Source of the DNA: Curtobacterium sp. MR_MD2014
Lineage (GTDB): Bacteria; Actinomycetota; Actinomycetes; Actinomycetales; Microbacteriaceae
Direction: 5' to 3'
Length of the DNA: 64,000 bases
NCBI RefSeq assembly: GCF_000772085.1
Contig: NZ_CP009755.1
Span: forward strand, 2,480,001 to 2,544,000
The translations under genes and the position numbers were made by a program. Shown here one piece after another: positions 4,810 to 14,815 of the stretch. Position 1 is the stretch's first letter; each line of letters starts with the position of its first letter. A model generated the notes under the pieces. The model was not told the DNA's origin. It was given only the letters and a program-made list of their open reading frames with translations, and did not search any database.

Positions 4810-6222
4810 TCAGCGCGCCGCGGCCCGCACCCGTCGCGCCGGTCGCACCGTGTCCCCCGCGGTCCGGCTCATCAGGACACCCTCGACACAGGCCACCACG
4901 AGGAGCACGGCGATCACCCAGAAGGCCACGTCGTAGGGCCCGGTCCCGCCGAGCCCGGCCGCAGCCCGGATGGCCACGGCGGCGACGGCGACCCCGAAGC
5001 CCGCTGCGACCTGCTGCAGCGTCGACGAGAGCGTGTTCGCCGGCGTCATGTCCGCCTGCTCGACGTCGGCGAAGGCGATCGTGTTGTACGCCGTGAAGCC
5101 GACCGACCGCGCGGCGCCGCTCACCACGAGCAGCACGGCGAGCAGCCAGAACGGGGTGTCCTCGGTCAGGAACACCATCGCGACGACGCTCAGCGCTGCG
5201 ATCGCGCTCGACACGACGATCACCGGCCGGTAGCCGAACCAGCGGAGGAACGGCGTGGTCATCGGCTTGATCCCGAGGTTGCCGACGAAGACCCACAGCA
5301 CCGCGGACCCGGCGAGCACCGCGCTCCAGCCCCAGGCGTCCTGGAAGAGCAGCGGCAGCACGAACGGCACGGCCGACACGGCGAGCCGGAACAGGCTGCC
5401 CCCGGCGTGCGAGACGCGGAAGGTCTCGAGCCGGAACGACCCGAGGCCCATGATCGGGTGCGGGGCCCGACGGAAGTGCCGCACGGCGAGCCAGCAGCAG
5501 ACGCCCCCGACCACGCCCGACACGACGACCGCGACCAGGGGGATCTCGTCGAGTGCGAGCAGGGACGCCATCACCACGAGCGAGCCGAGTCCGAGGCAGG
5601 CGAGCAGCGACCCACGCCAGTCGAACGGGACGCGTTCCGGAGCGCGCTCCTGCGGCACGAGGACCAGTGCGGCGACGAAGGCGATCACCCCGAGCGGGAT
5701 GTTGACGAGGAAGATCCAGTGCCAGCTGAGGGTGTCGACGAGCACGCCGCCGACGAACGGGGCGATGATCGGTGCCGCGAGTGCGGGCCAGGTGAGGATC
5801 GCGATGGCGGTGACGAGCTGTTCGCGTCCGGCACTCCGCAGGACGACGAGCCGTCCGACGGGCACCATGAGTGCTCCGCCGAGCCCCTGCAGGATCCGCC
5901 AGAGCGTCAGCTCGACGAGCCCCTCCGACGCCGCGCACAGGGCGGAGGCCACCGTGAAGAGCGCGATCGCGCCGGTGAAGACCGTGCGGGAGCCGACCCG
6001 GTCGGTGAGCCAGCCGCTGACCGGGATGAACACCGCGAGCGTGACGAGGTAGGCGGTGATCGCGACACCGATCGCGGCGGAGTCGACGCCGAGGTCGCGG
6101 CCCATCGCCGGGGCTGCGGTCGCGAGGATCGTGCCGTCCAGGAGCTCCATGAAGAAGGTGCCCGCGACGAGCACGGCCACCGCCGTGCTCCCCCGTCGTC
6201 GTGTCGTCGTCATCGTCGTCAT
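4810..6222 (-). CDS. MFS transporter, DHA2 (EmrB/QacA-like) family
   Basis: A 470-residue inner-membrane transporter. The first helix carries FMELLDGTILATAAPAM, the hallmark of the DHA2 drug:proton antiporters, and the loop after helix 2 carries SGWLTDRVGSR (motif A). About 12-14 hydrophobic segments are present. The start is the ATG at 6222, eight bases after a TAGCAT -10 box on the minus strand, suggesting a leaderless mRNA. It is divergent from the amino-sugar-acid operon and shares its 164-bp promoter region, so it could move a related compound, though drug efflux is the default guess. Confidence 0.85.
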   Translation of the reverse strand: MTTMTTTRRRGSTAVAVLVAGTFFMELLDGTILATAAPAMGRDLGVDSAAIGVAITAYLVTLAVFIPVSGWLTDRVGSRTVFTGAIALFTVASALCAASEGLVELTLWRILQGLGGALMVPVGRLVVLRSAGREQLVTAIAILTWPALAAPIIAPFVGGVLVDTLSWHWIFLVNIPLGVIAFVAALVLVPQERAPERVPFDWRGSLLACLGLGSLVVMASLLALDEIPLVAVVVSGVVGGVCCWLAVRHFRRAPHPIMGLGSFRLETFRVSHAGGSLFRLAVSAVPFVLPLLFQDAWGWSAVLAGSAVLWVFVGNLGIKPMTTPFLRWFGYRPVIVVSSAIAALSVVAMVFLTEDTPFWLLAVLLVVSGAARSVGFTAYNTIAFADVEQADMTPANTLSSTLQQVAAGFGVAVAAVAIRAAAGLGGTGPYDVAFWVIAVLLVVACVEGVLMSRTAGDTVRPARRVRAAAR

Positions 6223-6289
6223 CACGTCGAATGCTATGCCCGCTCGGTTTCTGCCCGACGCAGCCGGCAGGCGCCGGGGCGTACCACCG

Positions 6290-6304
6290 TTCTGCACCGC
6301 AGAA
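6290..6304. promoter_or_regulatory. Candidate IclR-type operator
   Basis: The 15-mer TTCTGCACCGCAGAA is a perfect 6-bp inverted repeat around ACC. It lies about 80 bases before the first gene of an operon whose second gene is an IclR regulator, and about 70 bases before the divergent MFS start. IclR-family sites are often short palindromes of this size. The pairing of site and regulator is inference. Confidence 0.55.
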
Positions 6305-6386
6305 TGGGCGGGACGAGGACGTTGCCCGGTGGACCCGGCACCGGGATCGTTGCCCCAGGAGCACACCGCACGACGCAGGAGGACCG

Positions 6387-7619
6387 ATGACGACCACCCC
6401 CGCAGCAGCAGGGCACCCCGTCCGCCCGCCCGGCACCGTCACGACGAAGGGCGCAGCCGACCCCGCCGCCCCCGTCCTCGGCCGGCACGTCCTCGACCAC
6501 GCGCACCTCCCGGTGATGACGCTCCGCGAGTCCGCCCTCGCCCACAACACCGCCGTCATGCAGTCGTACGTCGACCGCCACGGGCTGCTGCTCGCCCCGC
6601 ACATGAAGACGCACATGGCCCCGGCCCTCGCCGACCGCCAGGTCCGTGCCGGCGCCTGGGGCGTCACGGTCGCCTCCGTCCAGCAGGCCATGGTCGCGTG
6701 GGCACACGGCGTGCACCGGATCCTCGTCGCCAACGAGGTCCTCGACCCCGCCGGCCTCGCCTGGCTCGCCTCCCGCCGGAGCGTCGACCCCGACGCCGAC
6801 GTGCTCTGCAACGTCGACTCCGTCGCCGGTGTCACCGCGGCGGCGAGCGCCGCCCGCTCCGTCGGCGGCACCGTCCACGTGCTGGTCGAGGTCGGGTTCC
6901 CCGGCGGCCGGACGGGCGTGCGCTCGGCCGAGCAGGCGCGCGAGGTCGCCGTCGCGGCGCACGACGCGGGTCTCGTCCTCCGCGGGGTGACCGGGTACGA
7001 GGGGGGCCTGCCCGACGTCGACACCGCACGCGCCTGGGTCGCCGAGGTCCTCGCGATCGCCAGCGACGTGCGTCGTCTCGTCGCCGGCCGCACCCTGCTC
7101 AGCATGGGCGGCAGCGCCTGGTTCGACGGGGTGGTCGACGCCGTGGAGGGCCGTCCGGACGACGTCGACGTGCTCCTGCGCTCGGGCGCCTACCTCACGC
7201 ACGACGACGGCTTCTACGCCGAGCGCACGCCGTTCGGCCGCCGCCCGGAGGAGGGCTCGCTCCGCCCGGCGATCGAGGTGTGGGGCCGCGTCACGTCCTG
7301 CCCGGAGCCGGGCCGCGCGCTGGTCGCGGTCGGCAAGCGCGACGTCTCGTTCGACGAGGGCCTGCCGGTGGTGCGCGGCGTCCGGCCGGGAGGCACGGCA
7401 CACGACCCGCAGGTCGTCCCACCCGGGGCGGTCACCGTCACCCGCCTCGACGACCAGCACTGCTACCTCGCCCTGGGTGACGGGGCGCCCGGGCTGACGC
7501 CCGGCGACGTCGTCGTGCTCGGGGTCTCCCACCCGTGCACGGTCTTCGACAAGTGGCGGCAGGTGCAGGTGCTCGCGGACGACGACACGGTCACCGAGAC
7601 GATCGCGACGTGGTTCTGA
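6387..7619 (+). CDS. PLP-dependent DSD1-family enzyme (amino-acid deaminase / D-threonine aldolase-like)
   Basis: A 410-residue fold-type III PLP enzyme. The alanine-racemase-like barrel holds the Schiff-base lysine in APHMKTH (Lys74). The C-terminal domain ends with SHPCTVFDKW, giving His382 and Cys384 as an HxC metal pair. As I recall, D-serine dehydratases use His and Cys for zinc, while D-threonine aldolases use His and Asp, so beta-elimination with ammonia release is favoured here. It is the first gene of an operon with IclR, KDG kinase, KDPG aldolase and D-aminoacylase genes. I infer deamination of a 3-hydroxy D-amino acid such as D-glucosaminate. The ATG follows AGGAGG at 6376-6382. 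Confidence 0.78.
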   Translation: MTTTPAAAGHPVRPPGTVTTKGAADPAAPVLGRHVLDHAHLPVMTLRESALAHNTAVMQSYVDRHGLLLAPHMKTHMAPALADRQVRAGAWGVTVASVQQAMVAWAHGVHRILVANEVLDPAGLAWLASRRSVDPDADVLCNVDSVAGVTAAASAARSVGGTVHVLVEVGFPGGRTGVRSAEQAREVAVAAHDAGLVLRGVTGYEGGLPDVDTARAWVAEVLAIASDVRRLVAGRTLLSMGGSAWFDGVVDAVEGRPDDVDVLLRSGAYLTHDDGFYAERTPFGRRPEEGSLRPAIEVWGRVTSCPEPGRALVAVGKRDVSFDEGLPVVRGVRPGGTAHDPQVVPPGAVTVTRLDDQHCYLALGDGAPGLTPGDVVVLGVSHPCTVFDKWRQVQVLADDDTVTETIATWF

Positions 7620-8470
7620 TGCCCGACGACGAGCAGTCGCCGCCGTCGCCCGTGCCCGCGCGGAACGCCGCACTGTCGCTCCGCCGGGGCCTGACGGTCC
7701 TCGACCACGTGGCCGACCGCACCCGGAACGGCGCCGCCTCGGTGTCGCTCGGCGAGCTCGCGACGACCCTGGGCACCGCGAAGTCGACCGTGCTGCGCCT
7801 GACCGCGCCGATGGTCGAGACCGACCTGCTCCGCCGCACCCCGGACGCCGGCTTCACCCTCGGGCTCGGCGCACTGCTGCTCGGCCAGAGCTACCTCGAG
7901 GGCATCGACCTGCGCGCCGCAGCGGCGCCGTTCATGCGGCGCACCGCGGAGTCGACCGGCCTGACCTGTCACCTGGTGGTGCCGGACGGCACGGACATCG
8001 TCTACGTCGACAAGGTCGAGACCCGCGGAACGGTCCGGATGGGGTCACGCATCGGCCACCGCCTGCCGATGCGGAACACCGCCTCCGGCAAGGCGATCGT
8101 GGCGTTCGGCGACCCCGGGCTCCTCGGCGCGGTGCTCGCCGTGCCCGCGACCGCGATGACCGACCAGTCGATCACCGACGACGGACGCTGGCGGCAGGAG
8201 GTCGACCGCACCCGGGCGCGCGGGTACGGGATCGACGACCGCGAGAACGAGCCGGGCATCCGCTGCGTGGCCGCACCCGTGCTCGACCACGCGAACCAGG
8301 TCGTCGGCGCGATGAGCATCTCGGGGCTGGCGTCCCGCTTCCCGGCGGCGGCGGTCCGCGAGCTCGGCGACGGTGTCGTGCGGACCGCGCTCGAGATCTC
8401 GGTCGCGCTCGGGTCCTCGTCGGCACAGCTCGCCCTGCGTCGCACGGCACCGGGTGGGGTGACCCGGTGA
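7619..8470 (+). CDS. IclR family transcriptional regulator
   Basis: A 283-residue regulator with an N-terminal winged helix-turn-helix (roughly residues 20-85, containing LATTLGTAKSTVLRL) and a C-terminal effector domain with the family's typical IGHRLPMRNTASGKAIVAF region. The ATG overlaps the stop of the preceding enzyme gene (TGATG) and its stop overlaps the next GTG, so it is made in step with the pathway it presumably controls. The palindrome at 6290-6304 is its likely site. The ligand is probably a pathway intermediate such as KDG, which is inference. Confidence 0.87.
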   Translation: MPDDEQSPPSPVPARNAALSLRRGLTVLDHVADRTRNGAASVSLGELATTLGTAKSTVLRLTAPMVETDLLRRTPDAGFTLGLGALLLGQSYLEGIDLRAAAAPFMRRTAESTGLTCHLVVPDGTDIVYVDKVETRGTVRMGSRIGHRLPMRNTASGKAIVAFGDPGLLGAVLAVPATAMTDQSITDDGRWRQEVDRTRARGYGIDDRENEPGIRCVAAPVLDHANQVVGAMSISGLASRFPAAAVRELGDGVVRTALEISVALGSSSAQLALRRTAPGGVTR

Positions 8471-9549
8471 GCGCGCACACGGGGGTCCTCACCCTCGGCG
8501 AGACGATGCTCCTGCTGGCCGGCCCCGGTGTCGGCGAGGTGTGCGACCTCGACCACATGCGCGTCGACACCGGCGGGGCGGAGAGCAACGTCGCGATCGG
8601 GCTGGTCCGCGCGGGTGTCCCGGCCACGTGGGTCGGACGCGTGGGGGCGGACCCCGCCGGTGACCGGGTCCTGCGGGACGTCGGGCAGGCCGGCGTCGAG
8701 GTCGCCGCGGTCGTCGACCCCGAGCGTTCGACCGGGCTCATGATGAAGGAACGACTGCGGGACGGCCGGACCCGCGTGACCTACCACCGTCGACACTCCG
8801 CGGGCTCGGCGCTCGCACCGGAGGACGTCCCCGCCGGGCTCGTCGAGCGGTCGGCGCTCGTCCACGTCAGCGGCATCACGCTCGCGCTCTCGGAGTCCGC
8901 CCGGCGGACCGTCACCACGGTGCTCGACCGCGCCGAGGCCGCCGGGGTCCCGGTGTCCTTCGACGTGAACCACCGGCAGAAGCTGCTCGACGCCGCGGTC
9001 GCCCGGGAGCACTACCGCGCCGTCGCCGCCCGTGCCGCGGTGGTCTTCGCCGGCGACGACGAGGCCCGCATCCTGCTCGGTGCCCCGGACGGTGCCGGGG
9101 ACGACGGGGCGAGCCCGCTGCAGTCCGACGAGGACCTCGCCCGTGGGCTCGCCGACCTGGCCCGTGGTCGTGCCGTGGTGAAGCTCGGCTCCCGCGGCGC
9201 CGTCTCGGTCGTGGACGGGCGGACGACCCGCCGCGCGGCGACACCGGTCCGGGTCGTCGACCCGGTCGGTGCCGGTGACGCGTTCGTGGCGGCCTGGCTC
9301 GCGGCGACGCTCACGGGGGCCGACGCGGACAGCGCGCTCGACCGGGCCGCCGACGCCGGAGCGCTCGCCTGCACCGTCCCGGGCGACTGGCGGTTGCCGG
9401 TCCCCGGCGCGAGCCCCGACACGCTCACCGCTGACGCGTCGGACCCGTCCGATCCGTCCGACCCGTCAGACCCGTCGGACCCGTCAGACCCGGCCGGCCC
9501 CCGAGCAGCCGCGATCGACACCGCGGTGCACGACCGCGTCGACCGCTGA
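8467..9549 (+). CDS. PfkB-family sugar kinase, probable 2-keto-3-deoxygluconate kinase
   Basis: A 360-residue ribokinase-fold enzyme. The N-terminus TLGETMLLLAG and GGAESNVAIGL, and the C-terminal ATP/anion motif DPVGAGDAF with the catalytic Asp, define the PfkB family. The neighbouring KDPG-type aldolase makes KDG the most likely substrate, giving KDPG. The GTG start overlaps the IclR stop (GTGA). After the catalytic domain the last 45 or so residues are an unusual tail with repeated Asp-Pro-Ser triplets (see repeat at 9439-9492), which family members do not need. Confidence 0.82.
   Translation: MSAHTGVLTLGETMLLLAGPGVGEVCDLDHMRVDTGGAESNVAIGLVRAGVPATWVGRVGADPAGDRVLRDVGQAGVEVAAVVDPERSTGLMMKERLRDGRTRVTYHRRHSAGSALAPEDVPAGLVERSALVHVSGITLALSESARRTVTTVLDRAEAAGVPVSFDVNHRQKLLDAAVAREHYRAVAARAAVVFAGDDEARILLGAPDGAGDDGASPLQSDEDLARGLADLARGRAVVKLGSRGAVSVVDGRTTRRAATPVRVVDPVGAGDAFVAAWLAATLTGADADSALDRAADAGALACTVPGDWRLPVPGASPDTLTADASDPSDPSDPSDPSDPSDPAGPRAAAIDTAVHDRVDR
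9439..9492 (+). repeat. 9-bp tandem repeat encoding Asp-Pro-Ser triplets
   Basis: About six copies of a GACCCGTCN unit (variants end in C, G or A) lie in frame near the 3' end of the kinase gene and encode (DPS)n. Unit-to-unit differences are mostly third-position changes. The tail is dispensable in appearance and could vary in copy number between strains. Confidence 0.75.
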
Positions 9550-9605
9550 CCGCGACCACCACCCGTCCGGCACGAACCCGCCCGACCGATCCGAGGAGCC
9601 CCACC

Positions 9606-10274
9606 GTGAGCACCCACCACACGTCCACCGGCGACAGCCCGTCGGTGCCGCACCACGGCACCCGGCACGGCGCGGGTCCGGCCGTCGCGATCCTCCGCGG
9701 CGGCACGGGCGAGCACGTCGAGGCGGTCGTCGACACCCTGGTGGGCGCCGGCGTCCGCGCGGTCGAGCTCACCACGAACACCCCGCGCTGGCGCGAGGGC
9801 ACCGCCTGGACCGCGCGACGGTTCGGCGACGGCGTCTCCGTCGGGGTGGGCACGGTCCTCGACCCGGAACAGGTCGACGACGCTGCCGACCTGGGGGCGT
9901 CCTTCGTCGTCAGCCCGCACCTCGACCCCGCGATCGGCGAGCGTGCCCACGAGCGGGGCCTCGGCTGGTACCCGGGGGCAGCGACGCCGACCGAGATCGT
10001 GCGGGCGTGGCGGCTCGGCGCCCGGGCGGTGAAGGTGTTCCCGGCGGCACAGCTCGGCGGCCCCGCGTACCTGCGGCAGGTGCTCGCCCCGCTCGACTTC
10101 GTCGACGTGGTCCCGACCGGCGGCATCGGGATCGACGATGCCGCCGACTACCTGGCAGCCGGTGCGGTGGCGGTCGGACTCGGCTCCCCCCTGGTCGGTG
10201 ACGCCCTGGGCACCGGGGACACGGTCGCGCTGCGGTCCCGCGCGGAGCGGCTCGTCGCGGGGCTCGCCCGGTGA
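9606..10274 (+). CDS. eda: KDPG/KHG aldolase (bifunctional 4-hydroxy-2-oxoglutarate / 2-keto-3-deoxy-6-phosphogluconate aldolase)
   Basis: A 222-residue class I aldolase that splits KDPG to pyruvate and glyceraldehyde-3-phosphate. The Schiff-base lysine is in ARAVKVFPAAQLGG; the strand AVELTTNTP holds the catalytic Glu; GGIGIDDAADYLAAG is the phosphate-binding C-terminal loop. A GAGGAG ribosome-binding site precedes the GTG start. The 56-base gap after the kinase gene is the only real gap in the operon. The stop overlaps the start of the D-aminoacylase gene. Confidence 0.88.
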   Translation: MSTHHTSTGDSPSVPHHGTRHGAGPAVAILRGGTGEHVEAVVDTLVGAGVRAVELTTNTPRWREGTAWTARRFGDGVSVGVGTVLDPEQVDDAADLGASFVVSPHLDPAIGERAHERGLGWYPGAATPTEIVRAWRLGARAVKVFPAAQLGGPAYLRQVLAPLDFVDVVPTGGIGIDDAADYLAAGAVAVGLGSPLVGDALGTGDTVALRSRAERLVAGLAR

Positions 10275-11884
10275 CCACCACCGCGGAGACCGGTGCGCCG
10301 CTCGTGCTCCGCGGCGGGTCCGTCGTCGACCGGGACGGCCCCACCCGCGCGGACGTGCTCGTGGAATGCGGTCGGATCACGGCGGTCGGTGCGACGGTTC
10401 CCGTGCCGGACGACGCCAGCACGATCGACTGCGGTGGCCGCACGGTCCTCCCCGGGGCCGTCGACGCGCACTCGCACGCCGGGTCCCGGGTCTTCGACGA
10501 GGACGTCCAGCTCGCGCTGCTCCGTCAGGGCGTCACGTCGATCGTCACCGGCCAGGACGGCGTCGGCCCGGCCCCCGGCGACGGCAGGTGGGCGGGCCGG
10601 TACTTCGCGGCGATCGACGGCCCGCACCCCCGGTACCGCGGCGGCGGCACCGCCGGCCTGCTGGCGACGTACGACGGCACCACGCCGCTGAACGTCGCGA
10701 CCCTGGTGCCCGCCGGGACGATCCGGCACGAGGTGCTGGGCGACGAGGACCGACCCGCGACCGCCGAGGAGACCACGGCGATGGGCGCGCTCGTCCGCCG
10801 CGGGCTCGCCGAGGGAGCGCTCGGGCTCGCCACCGGGCTCGACTACGTGCCGGGGCTGTACGCCGACACCGCCGAGCTCGCGGCGCTCTGCGCGGAGGTC
10901 GCCGCCGTCGACGGCGTCTACGTGTCGCACGTCCGCGGCGGGTACGAGGCGAACCTCCGCGTCGGGCTCGAGGAGGTCGCCGAGATCGTCCGGTCGAGCG
11001 GGGTCCGTGCGCACGTGTCGCACCTGCACGCTCCGGTCGACACGGCCCTCGGCGTGCTCGAGGACCTGGCGGCCGCGGGGGTACGGCTGACCTTCGACGC
11101 GTACCCGTACTCCCGCGGGTGCACGATCCTGTCGATGCTGCTGCTCCCCGCCGCACTCGCGCGCCCCGGCACCGACGACCTCGCCCGCGCGGTCGCCGAC
11201 GACGCCGGACGCCGCCGGGTCCGCACCGCCGTGCTCGACCGGGTCACCGCGCGCCCGGACCTCGGACCGGGCTGGGCGGACCAGGTCACGCTCTCCCACG
11301 TGCCCTCACCGGCGCACCACGACCTGCAGGGCCGCACCCTGACCGACGCCGCGACGGTGCGACGCACCGAACCCGTGGACCTGGCGATCGACCTGCTCGT
11401 CGCCTCCGACCTGCAGGTGACCGCGATCATGCGCGTCCCGCACCCGCGCTCCCCCGCCGACCTCGCGCCGCTCGTCCGGCACCCCGGGCACACCGCGGGG
11501 TCGGACGGCATCCACGTCGGCACGCACCCGCACCCGCGGGCCACCGGCACCGTGGCGCGGTACCTCGGCGACTTCGTGCGTGCCGGGCTGCTGTCGTGGC
11601 CGGACGCCCAGCGGCACCTGTCGACCACCGCCGTCGAGCACCTGCGGCTGGGCGACCGCGGGGTCGTGCGTGCGGGGGCGGTCGCCGACCTCGCGGTGGT
11701 CGACCCCGAGCGGGTGGCGGCGCGGTCGACCTACGACGACCCGACGGCCACGGCTGTGGGGACGGACGACGTCCTGGTGGCGGGCGTGCCGGTGCTCGCT
11801 GCCGGACGTCTGACGGGCACCACCCCGGGCGCCGGGATCCGGCGTGCGGGCGCGACGGCACCGAGGGGCACCGGAGGTCGGTGA
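10271..11884 (+). CDS. N-acyl-D-amino-acid deacylase (D-aminoacylase) family amidohydrolase
   Basis: A 537-residue metal-dependent amidohydrolase. The HxH motif is in VDAHSHAG (near residue 66), metal-ligand histidines follow in VSHVRGG and HVSHLHAP, and the late Asp is in HTAGSDGIHVG; the following HPRATGTVARYLGDFVR is typical of D-aminoacylases. Such enzymes remove N-acyl groups from D-amino acids. D-glucosaminate is formally a D-amino acid, so in this operon it may deacetylate an N-acetylated amino-sugar acid, feeding the PLP enzyme. The GTG start overlaps the eda stop. A short hairpin (CCGCTC/GAGCGG, 11889-11903) follows. Confidence 0.82.
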   Translation: MTTTAETGAPLVLRGGSVVDRDGPTRADVLVECGRITAVGATVPVPDDASTIDCGGRTVLPGAVDAHSHAGSRVFDEDVQLALLRQGVTSIVTGQDGVGPAPGDGRWAGRYFAAIDGPHPRYRGGGTAGLLATYDGTTPLNVATLVPAGTIRHEVLGDEDRPATAEETTAMGALVRRGLAEGALGLATGLDYVPGLYADTAELAALCAEVAAVDGVYVSHVRGGYEANLRVGLEEVAEIVRSSGVRAHVSHLHAPVDTALGVLEDLAAAGVRLTFDAYPYSRGCTILSMLLLPAALARPGTDDLARAVADDAGRRRVRTAVLDRVTARPDLGPGWADQVTLSHVPSPAHHDLQGRTLTDAATVRRTEPVDLAIDLLVASDLQVTAIMRVPHPRSPADLAPLVRHPGHTAGSDGIHVGTHPHPRATGTVARYLGDFVRAGLLSWPDAQRHLSTTAVEHLRLGDRGVVRAGAVADLAVVDPERVAARSTYDDPTATAVGTDDVLVAGVPVLAAGRLTGTTPGAGIRRAGATAPRGTGGR

Positions 11885-11918
11885 GGTTCCGCTCAGGGAG
11901 CGGGACGGCGGGTGACGA

Positions 11919-12305
11919 TCAGGAGGCGCTGGGCAGCACCGCGACGACGTCGATCTCCACGAGGATCCCGGCCAGGTGCGACTGCACGGTCGTGCGGACC
12001 GGGTACGGCTCCGAGAAGTGCTTCGCGTACTCCTCGTTGAAGGCGGCGAAGTCCCGGTCCGAGTGCTCGAGGTGGACGGTCGACTTCACGACGTCGTCGA
12101 GGGTCGCGCCGTGCTCGGCGAGGACGGCGGCGACGTTGGCCAGCACCTGGGCGGTCTGTCCGGCGACGTCGTCGGCCATCGCCCCCGTCGCCGGGTCCTG
12201 CGGCCCGAAGCCCGCGGTGTAGAGGAACCCGCCGGCCACGATGCCCTGGCTGTACGGGCCGGCGGGTGCCGGGGCGTTCGCGGTGACGATGGCGGTCTTC
12301 GGCAC
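11919..12305 (-). CDS. RidA family imine/enamine deaminase
   Basis: A 128-residue protein of the RidA (YjgF) family, which hydrolyses reactive 2-aminoacrylate-type imines released by PLP dehydratases. Visible landmarks are APAPAGPYSQG near the start, the active-site arginine in YPVRTTVQ and the glutamate in LVEIDVVA. The GTG start is supported by GAGGAG just upstream, and a TAGCCT -10 box lies about 50 bases further. It converges on the D-aminoacylase gene. Its closeness to a putative amino-acid dehydratase suggests it clears the imine that this enzyme releases. Confidence 0.9.
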   Translation of the reverse strand: MPKTAIVTANAPAPAGPYSQGIVAGGFLYTAGFGPQDPATGAMADDVAGQTAQVLANVAAVLAEHGATLDDVVKSTVHLEHSDRDFAAFNEEYAKHFSEPYPVRTTVQSHLAGILVEIDVVAVLPSAS

Positions 12306-12513
12306 GGGGACTCCTCTGGTCGTCGGACGCGGTCCGTCCGGGTGGGCCTCCAGGCTAGGGCCGGCCCCACTGCGCGGACCGACCACCCGCCGGAGCCGTT
12401 GCGGTGTGCAGAACGCGGGACGGGCCTCCCGGCCGACCACCGACGACCGACCCGTCCGCGACCGGCCACCGGCGTGCCGGAGGGTGCCAGGCGACGGTCG
12501 GTACGCTCGGTCC

Positions 12514-14584: not shown

Positions 14585-14815
14585 GGCGTGCAGGGCGGGA
14601 ACGGGCGCACCTGGCGAGAACGGCGCACCTGGCGAGAACGGCGCACCTGGCGAGAACGCGCGTCCCTGGCGAGAACGGACGTCCCTGGCGAGAACGGACG
14701 TCCCTGGCGAGGACTGGCGTACCTGGCGAGGACTGGCGCACTTGGCGAGGACGGGCGCACTTGGCGAGGACGGGCGCACTTTGCGGGAACGGGCGTACCT
14801 GGCCGTCCGAGAACG
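14585..14815. repeat. Minisatellite of about eleven 18/19-bp units
   Basis: Tandem units follow the consensus GGCGCACCTGGCGAGAACG. Three early units are identical 18-mers; later units are 19-mers that vary at the ACCTGG (CCCTGG, ACTTGG) and AGAACG (AGGACT, AGGACG) positions. No spacer separates units, so it is not a CRISPR array. The array lies in a 519-base gap between two minus-strand genes. The flanks (14421-14584 and 14816-14939) hold no gene I can support. Confidence 0.9.

Follow-up and report, generated by a model that had tools for sequence, protein, structure and literature searches.

A conserved and putatively regulated Curtobacterium gene cluster proposed to degrade N-acylated amino sugar acids

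The 64,000-nucleotide stretch of Curtobacterium sp. MR_MD2014 analysed here (contig NZ_CP009755.1, positions 2,480,001 to 2,544,000; hereafter the window) belongs to a genome of 3.44 Mb in one contig. It carries a compact cluster of genes coding for a pyridoxal phosphate (PLP) enzyme, an IclR-family regulator, a PfkB kinase, an aldolase, a D-aminoacylase-like amidohydrolase and a RidA protein (Table 1). Which compound would such a set of proteins degrade? An earlier note on this DNA, made from the letters alone, had proposed a complete route from an N-acylated amino sugar acid to pyruvate and glyceraldehyde-3-phosphate, and had pointed to a similar set in marine bacteria that use oxidised chitin. 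The parallel holds: the ong cluster is known experimentally from the oxidative chitin pathway of the marine bacterium Pseudoalteromonas prydzensis, in which OngB, OngC and KdgK perform the corresponding reactions (PMC9537276). We consider, with a probability of about 0.6, that the Curtobacterium genes are regulated as a cluster and serve to catabolise an N-acylated 2-amino-2-deoxy-hexonate, i.e. N-acetyl-D-glucosaminate (GlcNAc1A) or its galacto epimer. The cluster would probably yield pyruvate and glyceraldehyde-3-phosphate from this oxidised N-acylated amino sugar. Sets of these enzyme kinds recur in many actinobacteria of soils and plants.

In the proposed route, the amidohydrolase, which has an Asp residue at the position of a zinc-binding Cys of OngB, would strip the acyl group from the N-acyl-2-amino-2-deoxy-hexonate, and the PLP enzyme would then eliminate water across C2-C3. 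Hydrolysis by RidA of the released enamine or imine would give ammonia and 2-keto-3-deoxygluconate (KDG) or 2-keto-3-deoxygalactonate (KDGal). Phosphorylation at C6 by the kinase and cleavage by the aldolase, of the type acting on the 6-phosphates KDPG and KDPGal, would produce pyruvate and glyceraldehyde-3-phosphate. The IclR protein would govern the operon, a divergent MFS gene and the RidA gene through one palindrome. The succession of deacylation, PLP-dependent beta-elimination, KDG phosphorylation and aldol cleavage set out in the earlier note fits the protein families, and relatives of the cluster carry sugar-acid genes; its deacylase is not supported, as the amidohydrolase is not of the GlcNAc1A deacetylase type.

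Gene families and conservation of the set

All six genes named earlier are present, with overlaps or short gaps, and domain searches with Pfam and NCBIfam models agree with their assignments. None of the NCBIfam matches shown for the cluster proteins, including all eight of the IclR protein, reaches its cut-off, and the names used here are therefore those of families and not of curated functions.

The cluster is not a chance assembly, because 28 of 31 Curtobacterium-type loci contain the complete set of six genes and the remaining three lie at contig ends. Genomes of named species were scanned with an amidohydrolase alignment and two motifs of the window's own clade, and the best 80 of 144 matches were retained. 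Clustering of the open reading frames (ORFs) of these 80 loci, called with a simple purpose-made program, placed the amidohydrolase in 78, RidA in 72, the PLP enzyme in 70, the aldolase in 60, the kinase in 52 and the IclR regulator in 47. Beyond Curtobacterium, the genera represented include Microbacterium, Brachybacterium, Sinomonas, Arthrobacter, Agromyces, Cryobacterium, Leifsonia and Leucobacter, in which the gene order is shuffled. In one of the Curtobacterium loci, that of Curtobacterium flaccumfaciens Sample7_18 (L007, 6278-8890), the PLP and kinase genes match partially, perhaps owing to frameshifts or sequencing errors.

As the counts in the best 80 loci are biased toward close relatives, 299 Microbacteriaceae genomes were drawn as well. 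An amidohydrolase match at E<=1e-60 was found in 55 of them, one of which (G047) has a Cys-type enzyme; the seven Curtobacterium genomes in this set comprise five carriers and two non-carriers. A KDPG-type aldolase is encoded close to the amidohydrolase in 34 of the 55 carriers (20 from examined neighbourhoods, four Curtobacterium genomes and 10 in which the coordinates place it at most 5 kb away), against a chance expectation of ~0.3 of 55 (251 PF01081 matches in 299 genomes; ~0.005 per 19.7 kb). Neighbourhoods of ~9 kb on each side, some ending at contig ends, were examined in 40 of the 55. These are a non-random subset, the first 20 having been picked because no adjacent aldolase was listed, and 34/55 is therefore the main figure for the aldolase. 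They contain the PLP enzyme in 38 cases, RidA in 32, the aldolase in 20 and both kinase and aldolase in 19. Of the other 15 carriers, G258 has only the PLP enzyme, RidA and the amidohydrolase. Kinase, aldolase, amidohydrolase and RidA are all present in the four Curtobacterium carriers among these 15, which include the window, in which the PLP gene is visible only for the window, the stretches of the other three being short.

The best solved relative of the PLP enzyme is 3gwq, a 'D-serine deaminase' (254 bits). The PLP lysine and the His-x-Cys (H-P-C) metal site of D-serine dehydratase-like enzymes are present: K74, which we take to be the PLP lysine, and H382 and C384, presumably the metal site, are invariant in 17/17 aligned relatives. 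The H-P-C motif is typical of dehydratases and not of threonine aldolases. A D-threonine or 3-hydroxyaspartate aldolase was rejected on this motif and on the score of the BhcC model (100 bits for a cut-off of 690). We propose from the sequence that the protein is a 2-amino-2-deoxy-hexonate dehydratase/deaminase.

The kinase shares its fold family with its best solved relative, the Thermus thermophilus KDG kinase 1v19, and in their alignment it conserves the equivalents of Y103, R105, I134 and R167. We take Tyr103, Arg105 and Arg167 of 1v19 to be KDG contacts. It differs from 1v19 in that it stays under every NCBIfam cut-off, missing that of the KDG kinase equivalog NF041332 (187.7 for 440 bits) as well as that of NF040938 (166.6 for 400). 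Near its C-terminus, a 9-bp repeat, GACCCGTCC (7.6 copies, 9433-9500), codes for (DPS)n.

The aldolase is the sole PF01081 match of its genome (121.9 bits; cut-off 27.8) and comes close to the cut-off of TIGR01182 (154.4 for 156.05 bits), with 150.5 bits for PRK09140 (cut-off 207). The KDPG and KDPGal models thus score level (154.4 and 150.5), which would fit either C4 epimer. The RidA protein reaches 104.4 bits with TIGR00004 (cut-off 106.25) and has both GPYSQG and PVRTTV, which we assume to be the functional motifs of the family.

Table 1. Features of the cluster and its surroundings (positions in the window)
Feature	Position	Strand	Domains or remarks
Fold-type III PLP enzyme, D-serine dehydratase-like	6387..7619	+	PF14031 + PF01168
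IclR-family regulator	7619..8470	+	PF09339 + PF01614; TGATG overlap with PLP gene
PfkB kinase, KDG/KDGal kinase-like	8467..9549	+	PF00294; overlaps IclR gene by 4 nt
KDPG/KDPGal-type class I aldolase	9606..10274	+	PF01081; 56-nt gap after kinase gene
D-aminoacylase-like amidohydrolase, Asp-type	10271..11884	+	PF07969; overlaps aldolase gene by 4 nt
RidA-type imine/enamine deaminase	11919..12305	-	PF01042; convergent, 34-nt gap to amidohydrolase gene
DHA2-type MFS transporter, divergent from operon	4810..6222	-	PF07690; start codon inferred
Codon of Asp96, position of PpOngB zinc ligand Cys97	10556..10558	+	alignment columns
Inferred operator GTTCTGCACCGCAGAAT	6289..6305	+	0 mismatches to GTTCTGCANNGCAGAAY; ~80 bp upstream of PLP start
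Second inferred operator	12398..12414	-	3 mismatches to GTTCTGCANNGCAGAAY; ~90 bp upstream of RidA

The amidohydrolase and its comparison with OngB

The relatives of the amidohydrolase with known structures include 3gip, 1m7j, 9g5m and 9kb1, the last being PpOngB, a GlcNAc1A deacetylase. The OngB proteins of two Pseudoalteromonas ong-type clusters (L118 and L119) served as references, that of L119 matching PpOngB with 823 bits. In PpOngB, Cys97 binds zinc, the carboxylate is held by Lys254, Tyr285, Arg379 and Ser291, and an S292T variant retains 1.3% of kcat/Km (PMC12017989). Aligned to OngB, the window enzyme keeps the HxH motif (H67, H69), the two zinc-ligand histidines (H220, H251), the catalytic Asp412, and Tyr278 and Arg423 as equivalents of Tyr285 and Arg379. 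In contrast, Cys97 is replaced by Asp96, Lys254 by His253 and the Ser290-291-292 triple by Gly-Cys-Thr, after which an extra segment is inserted. The enzyme is thus not of the GlcNAc1A deacetylase type, and these replacements also weigh against the substrate that we favour. Subtype V amidohydrolases have a Cys/His/His + Asp set; the Cys metal ligand is absent from the window enzyme, while the two His ligands, the HxH motif and the catalytic Asp are present.

Asp stands at the Cys97 position in 39/39 actinobacterial sequences of a 44-row tree and in 120/120 among the relatives listed (799 were found), which also all have a GQDG motif; H67, H69, H220, H251 and D412 are conserved in 44/44 tree rows. 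The 39 actinobacterial Asp-type proteins lie opposite the five Cys-type enzymes with a branch support of 100/100, in a tree in which four rows, including the window's, failed the composition test and L184 is on a long branch. Orthology to OngB is rejected by this tree. The proteins whose loci also have the kinase and the aldolase fall in both main subclades. An identity with PRK09061 was likewise rejected (142 bits for a cut-off of 340).

The window amidohydrolase therefore belongs to a clade distinct from OngB, and its substrate is not readable from that of OngB. This separate, apparently uncharacterised group may do the job of OngB, and we propose that the window protein is an N-acyl-aminoaldonate deacylase.

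A palindrome upstream of the operon and of the RidA gene

Alignment of upstream regions identified one palindrome common to those of the Curtobacterium PLP and RidA genes. We searched 30 Curtobacterium-type loci (582,579 bases; one, L010, is from a Microbacteriaceae bacterium) for GTTCTGCANNGCAGAAY at <=3 mismatches. It precedes the PLP gene in 22/25 cases and the RidA gene in 23/27, and is found before none of the other cluster genes (IclR 0/29, kinase 0/29, aldolase 0/28, amidohydrolase 0/30; 0/116 in total). All other genes, taken as one class that includes the divergent neighbours MFS and c10, have 47/404. Of the 61 sites in all, 50 are in the intergenic regions upstream of the PLP and RidA genes, which suggests that the 47 mostly belong to these divergent neighbours. 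The four matches in the window by itself are not significant, as 5/100 shuffles reach that number, and the significance of the palindrome rests on its conservation in the Curtobacterium-type loci. Outside this group, it was found before the PLP gene in 0/45 and before the RidA gene in 1/44 cases at the same threshold. A genome-wide regulon was rejected, because at <=2 mismatches the two strands gave 15 matches and a reversed control already gave 10; a one-mismatch site occurs at genome position 498310.

These data refine the operon proposed for the six genes. The five plus-strand genes fit it, but RidA is not a member, as a separate copy of the inferred operator precedes its gene; the shared palindrome would place it in the regulon of the operon. 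The IclR protein presumably reads this palindrome. The first operator sits in a 164-bp intergenic region common to the PLP gene and the divergent MFS gene, and ORF clustering showed that MFS genes of this type adjoin the PLP gene in Curtobacterium loci. The MFS protein (TIGR00711, 213.9 bits for a cut-off of 230.2) is thus a candidate transporter co-regulated with the operon.

Further downstream in the window, at 14594-14803, there is an unexplained array of a 19-bp unit, GGCGAGAACGGGCGCACCT (11.2 copies, 89% matches).

Neighbouring genes, substrate and alternative readings

Some relatives of the cluster also encode a GntP symporter, a lactonase or a short-chain dehydrogenase (SDR), which makes an N-acyl-2-amino aldonate the probable substrate. 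On a Tsukamurella plasmid, RidA, IclR, sugar kinase, PLP enzyme, D-aminoacylase, KDPG aldolase and an annotated gluconate:H+ symporter are encoded by consecutive genes. GntP-family symporters adjoin the cluster in four loci, i.e. this plasmid, Arthrobacter sp. StoSoilB13 (L122), L178 and L229, and the two tested exceed the gntP cut-off of 292.75 (394.6 and 372.9 bits). An MR_MLE enolase-type protein, unexplained, is also among the L229 neighbours. Lactonase genes adjoin the cluster in seven loci of three lineages (L050, L204, L212 and L214, tested with Pfam; L202, L203 and L223, assigned by similarity), and an SDR gene lies between the PLP and amidohydrolase genes in L050, L065, L212 and L214. 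The order in L212 is PLP enzyme, SDR, amidohydrolase, RidA and lactonase, with divergent genes for a sugar ABC importer, ROK and SIS-domain proteins. Its SDR passes the NCBIfam 'glucose 1-dehydrogenase' model (233.7 for 215 bits), a broad subfamily with a loose cut-off; another SDR model gives a higher score, under its own cut-off. L215 and L216 have a gene for a DHDPS-family protein between those of RidA and the amidohydrolase. Altogether, the neighbours point to aldonates derived from amino sugars, although GlcNAc1A cannot be told from its galacto epimer, or from substrates with other acyl groups, on sequence data. The SDR/lactonase variants follow the logic of the De Ley-Doudoroff pathway, in which C1 oxidation, a lactonase and dehydration are followed by KDGal kinase and KDPGal aldolase; the cluster would differ in adding a deacylation and in replacing the metal dehydratase by a PLP-based loss of ammonia.

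Other conserved neighbours were noted. A protein of ~394 residues is encoded directly after RidA in loci of the class (L170, 10513-11697; L116, 12041-13219; L168, 7291-8487), with no NCBIfam match for the three copies tested and no Pfam match for the two tested. Proteins weakly similar to the N-terminal portion of alkaline ceramidase are encoded directly before the PLP enzyme in two genera (L050, 6493-7881; L065, 6614-7831). In one genus, a baeRF-type release-factor-family protein follows the lactonase (L202, 15051-16145, tested with Pfam; L203, L204, L223). An MFS metabolite:H+ symporter is often encoded beside the non-Curtobacterium clusters (TIGR00883, 352.8 bits for a cut-off of 443.45 in the one copy tested), accompanied in 30 loci by a YheO-type PAS + HTH_22 regulator (e.g. 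L056, 5954-6670; one copy tested with Pfam).

Several observations speak against an amino sugar acid as the substrate. With profile models, 18 of the 40 Microbacteriaceae neighbourhoods have the PLP enzyme, 16 of them with RidA, and neither a PfkB kinase nor a KDPG aldolase; in two of the 18 (G033 and G216) an aldolase is encoded 14-17 kb away. Across the class, 113 of 345 genomes have a PLP enzyme match at E<=1e-60, and 20 neighbourhoods hand-picked from these, outside Microbacteriaceae, comprise 11 with the amidohydrolase and nine without, four with the kinase (L173, L174, L178 and L183) and, by similarity, none with a KDPG aldolase. The L070 and L216 clusters have aminotransferase genes as neighbours, and a gene for an amino-acid-type binding protein is present at L215/L216. 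The model of the D-serine transporter DsdX also matches both tested GntP symporters, with lower scores under its cut-off, and no importer of known specificity is encoded in the cluster. The neighbourhoods lacking kinase and aldolase and the adjacent aminotransferases would suit a salvage of N-acyl-D-amino acids such as N-acyl-D-Ser or N-acyl-D-Thr by the amidohydrolase, the PLP dehydratase and RidA, with the kinase and aldolase serving otherwise. Furthermore, OngC deaminates D-Ser and D-Thr too (PMC9537276), and a Comamonadaceae locus combines a PLP enzyme, a Cys-type D-aminoacylase, RidA and an ABC transporter. Streptomyces Sco4986 has reportedly been assayed as a deacylase of N-acetyl-D-Phe and N-acetyl-D-Trp. 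We nevertheless find this salvage unlikely, as it leaves unexplained the presence of both kinase and aldolase in 19/40 neighbourhoods, the tight operon of the window and the lactonase and SDR neighbours.

Use of GlcNAc1A released from chitin by lytic polysaccharide monooxygenases (LPMOs), i.e. a true ong-type pathway, appears less likely still. The kinds of enzymes match those of the ong cluster (PMC9537276), and AA10 LPMOs are slightly more frequent than expected in amidohydrolase carriers among the Microbacteriaceae genomes (4/55, against 5/244 in non-carriers; one-sided p 0.06). Yet no AA10 LPMO was found in 51 of the 55 carriers or in the window genome, and the amidohydrolase is not an OngB. 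Moreover, the cluster has no MurR/RpiR regulator, and neither its six genes nor the divergent MFS gene code for a GH20 enzyme or an SSS symporter, GH20 elsewhere in the genome not having been searched for. The co-occurrence with chitin-oxidising enzymes envisaged in the earlier note is thus a weak link, and given this p value and the lack of AA10 in the window genome, chitin oxidation is only weakly hinted at and not needed as an explanation.

A free N-acetyl amino sugar might instead be oxidised inside the cell by a dehydrogenase and a lactonase before entering the cluster. This is a sub-case of the N-acylated aldonate catabolism that we prefer, with overlapping odds, and is a possible but doubtful one. 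The SDR and lactonase of L212, next to the sugar importer, ROK and SIS genes, argue for it, as do those of L214 and L050. In Curtobacterium, however, the two enzymes are unlinked to the cluster and would have to be encoded elsewhere; the window genome has one unlinked PF10282 lactonase gene (558706-559749). In addition, the SDR belongs to a broad subfamily, the SDR and lactonase substrates are predicted, and in other lineages the GntP copies suggest that the acid is imported instead. The window genome also has an unlinked GntP-family gene (2011692-2013131), whose product is a possible importer of the acid, and four unlinked MFS relatives.

For the N-acylated aldonate catabolism that we favour, the closest known system is the ong cluster (PMC9537276). 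By family, both systems co-encode a D-aminoacylase-like deacylase, a fold-type III PLP deaminase, RidA and a PfkB KDG kinase, and kdgA is part of the ong cluster in Vibrio, Klebsiella and Serratia. The window cluster differs by a deacylase of another clade (27% identity, Asp for the Cys ligand), a PLP enzyme 30% identical to OngC orthologues, an IclR in place of a MurR/RpiR regulator, and the lack of GH20, TonB receptor and SSS symporter genes and of a genomic AA10 LPMO. A hypothetical glucosaminate route of Natrarchaeobius (PMC12343721) similarly includes amino sugar oxidation to the aldonate, deamination, an Entner-Doudoroff end, IclR and a RutC-family gene, but it starts with a CE14 deacetylation and a DGL-type lyase deaminates glucosaminate-6-phosphate; no D-aminoacylase-like enzyme is named in the available text. 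The earlier note had supposed that a terrestrial actinobacterial version might be undescribed. A terrestrial origin alone is not new, as the ong cluster is known from Gammaproteobacteria of both marine and terrestrial origin and from one Betaproteobacterium (PMC9537276). No ong-like cluster of Actinomycetota was found in the open-access literature searched, judged mostly by title, nor in the available portions of PMC11653859 (Aeromonas), PMC12343721, PMC13106269 (Arthrobacter chitin) and PMC7494193 (Streptomyces carbon metabolism). The actinobacterial cluster is thus likely undescribed. Its logic resembles that of the ong pathway, but its deacylase is of another clade, a regulon with two sites would include RidA, and the substrate is probably an amino aldonate.

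More tentatively, and short of even odds, these clusters might represent an undescribed oxidation of N-acetyl amino sugars, widespread in Actinomycetota and independent of LPMOs. An intracellular dehydrogenase and a lactonase, or import of the acid, would supply an N-acetyl-hexosaminate to a deacylase of a new amidohydrolase subtype, with Asp in place of Cys as zinc ligand and evolved separately from OngB; deamination by the PLP enzyme with RidA and an Entner-Doudoroff-type cleavage would follow. RidA is essential in the marine ong pathway, its function having been left open by the authors (PMC9537276), and the shared palindrome and the link of RidA with the operon bear on its role. The Asp-for-Cys ligand poses a clear structural question. 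If the proposed function is correct, a large amidohydrolase clade named by similarity alone, as N-acyl-D-amino-acid deacylases, would acquire a function, and a pathway for oxidised amino sugars found in the literature only from Proteobacteria would reach a major phylum of soils and plant surfaces.

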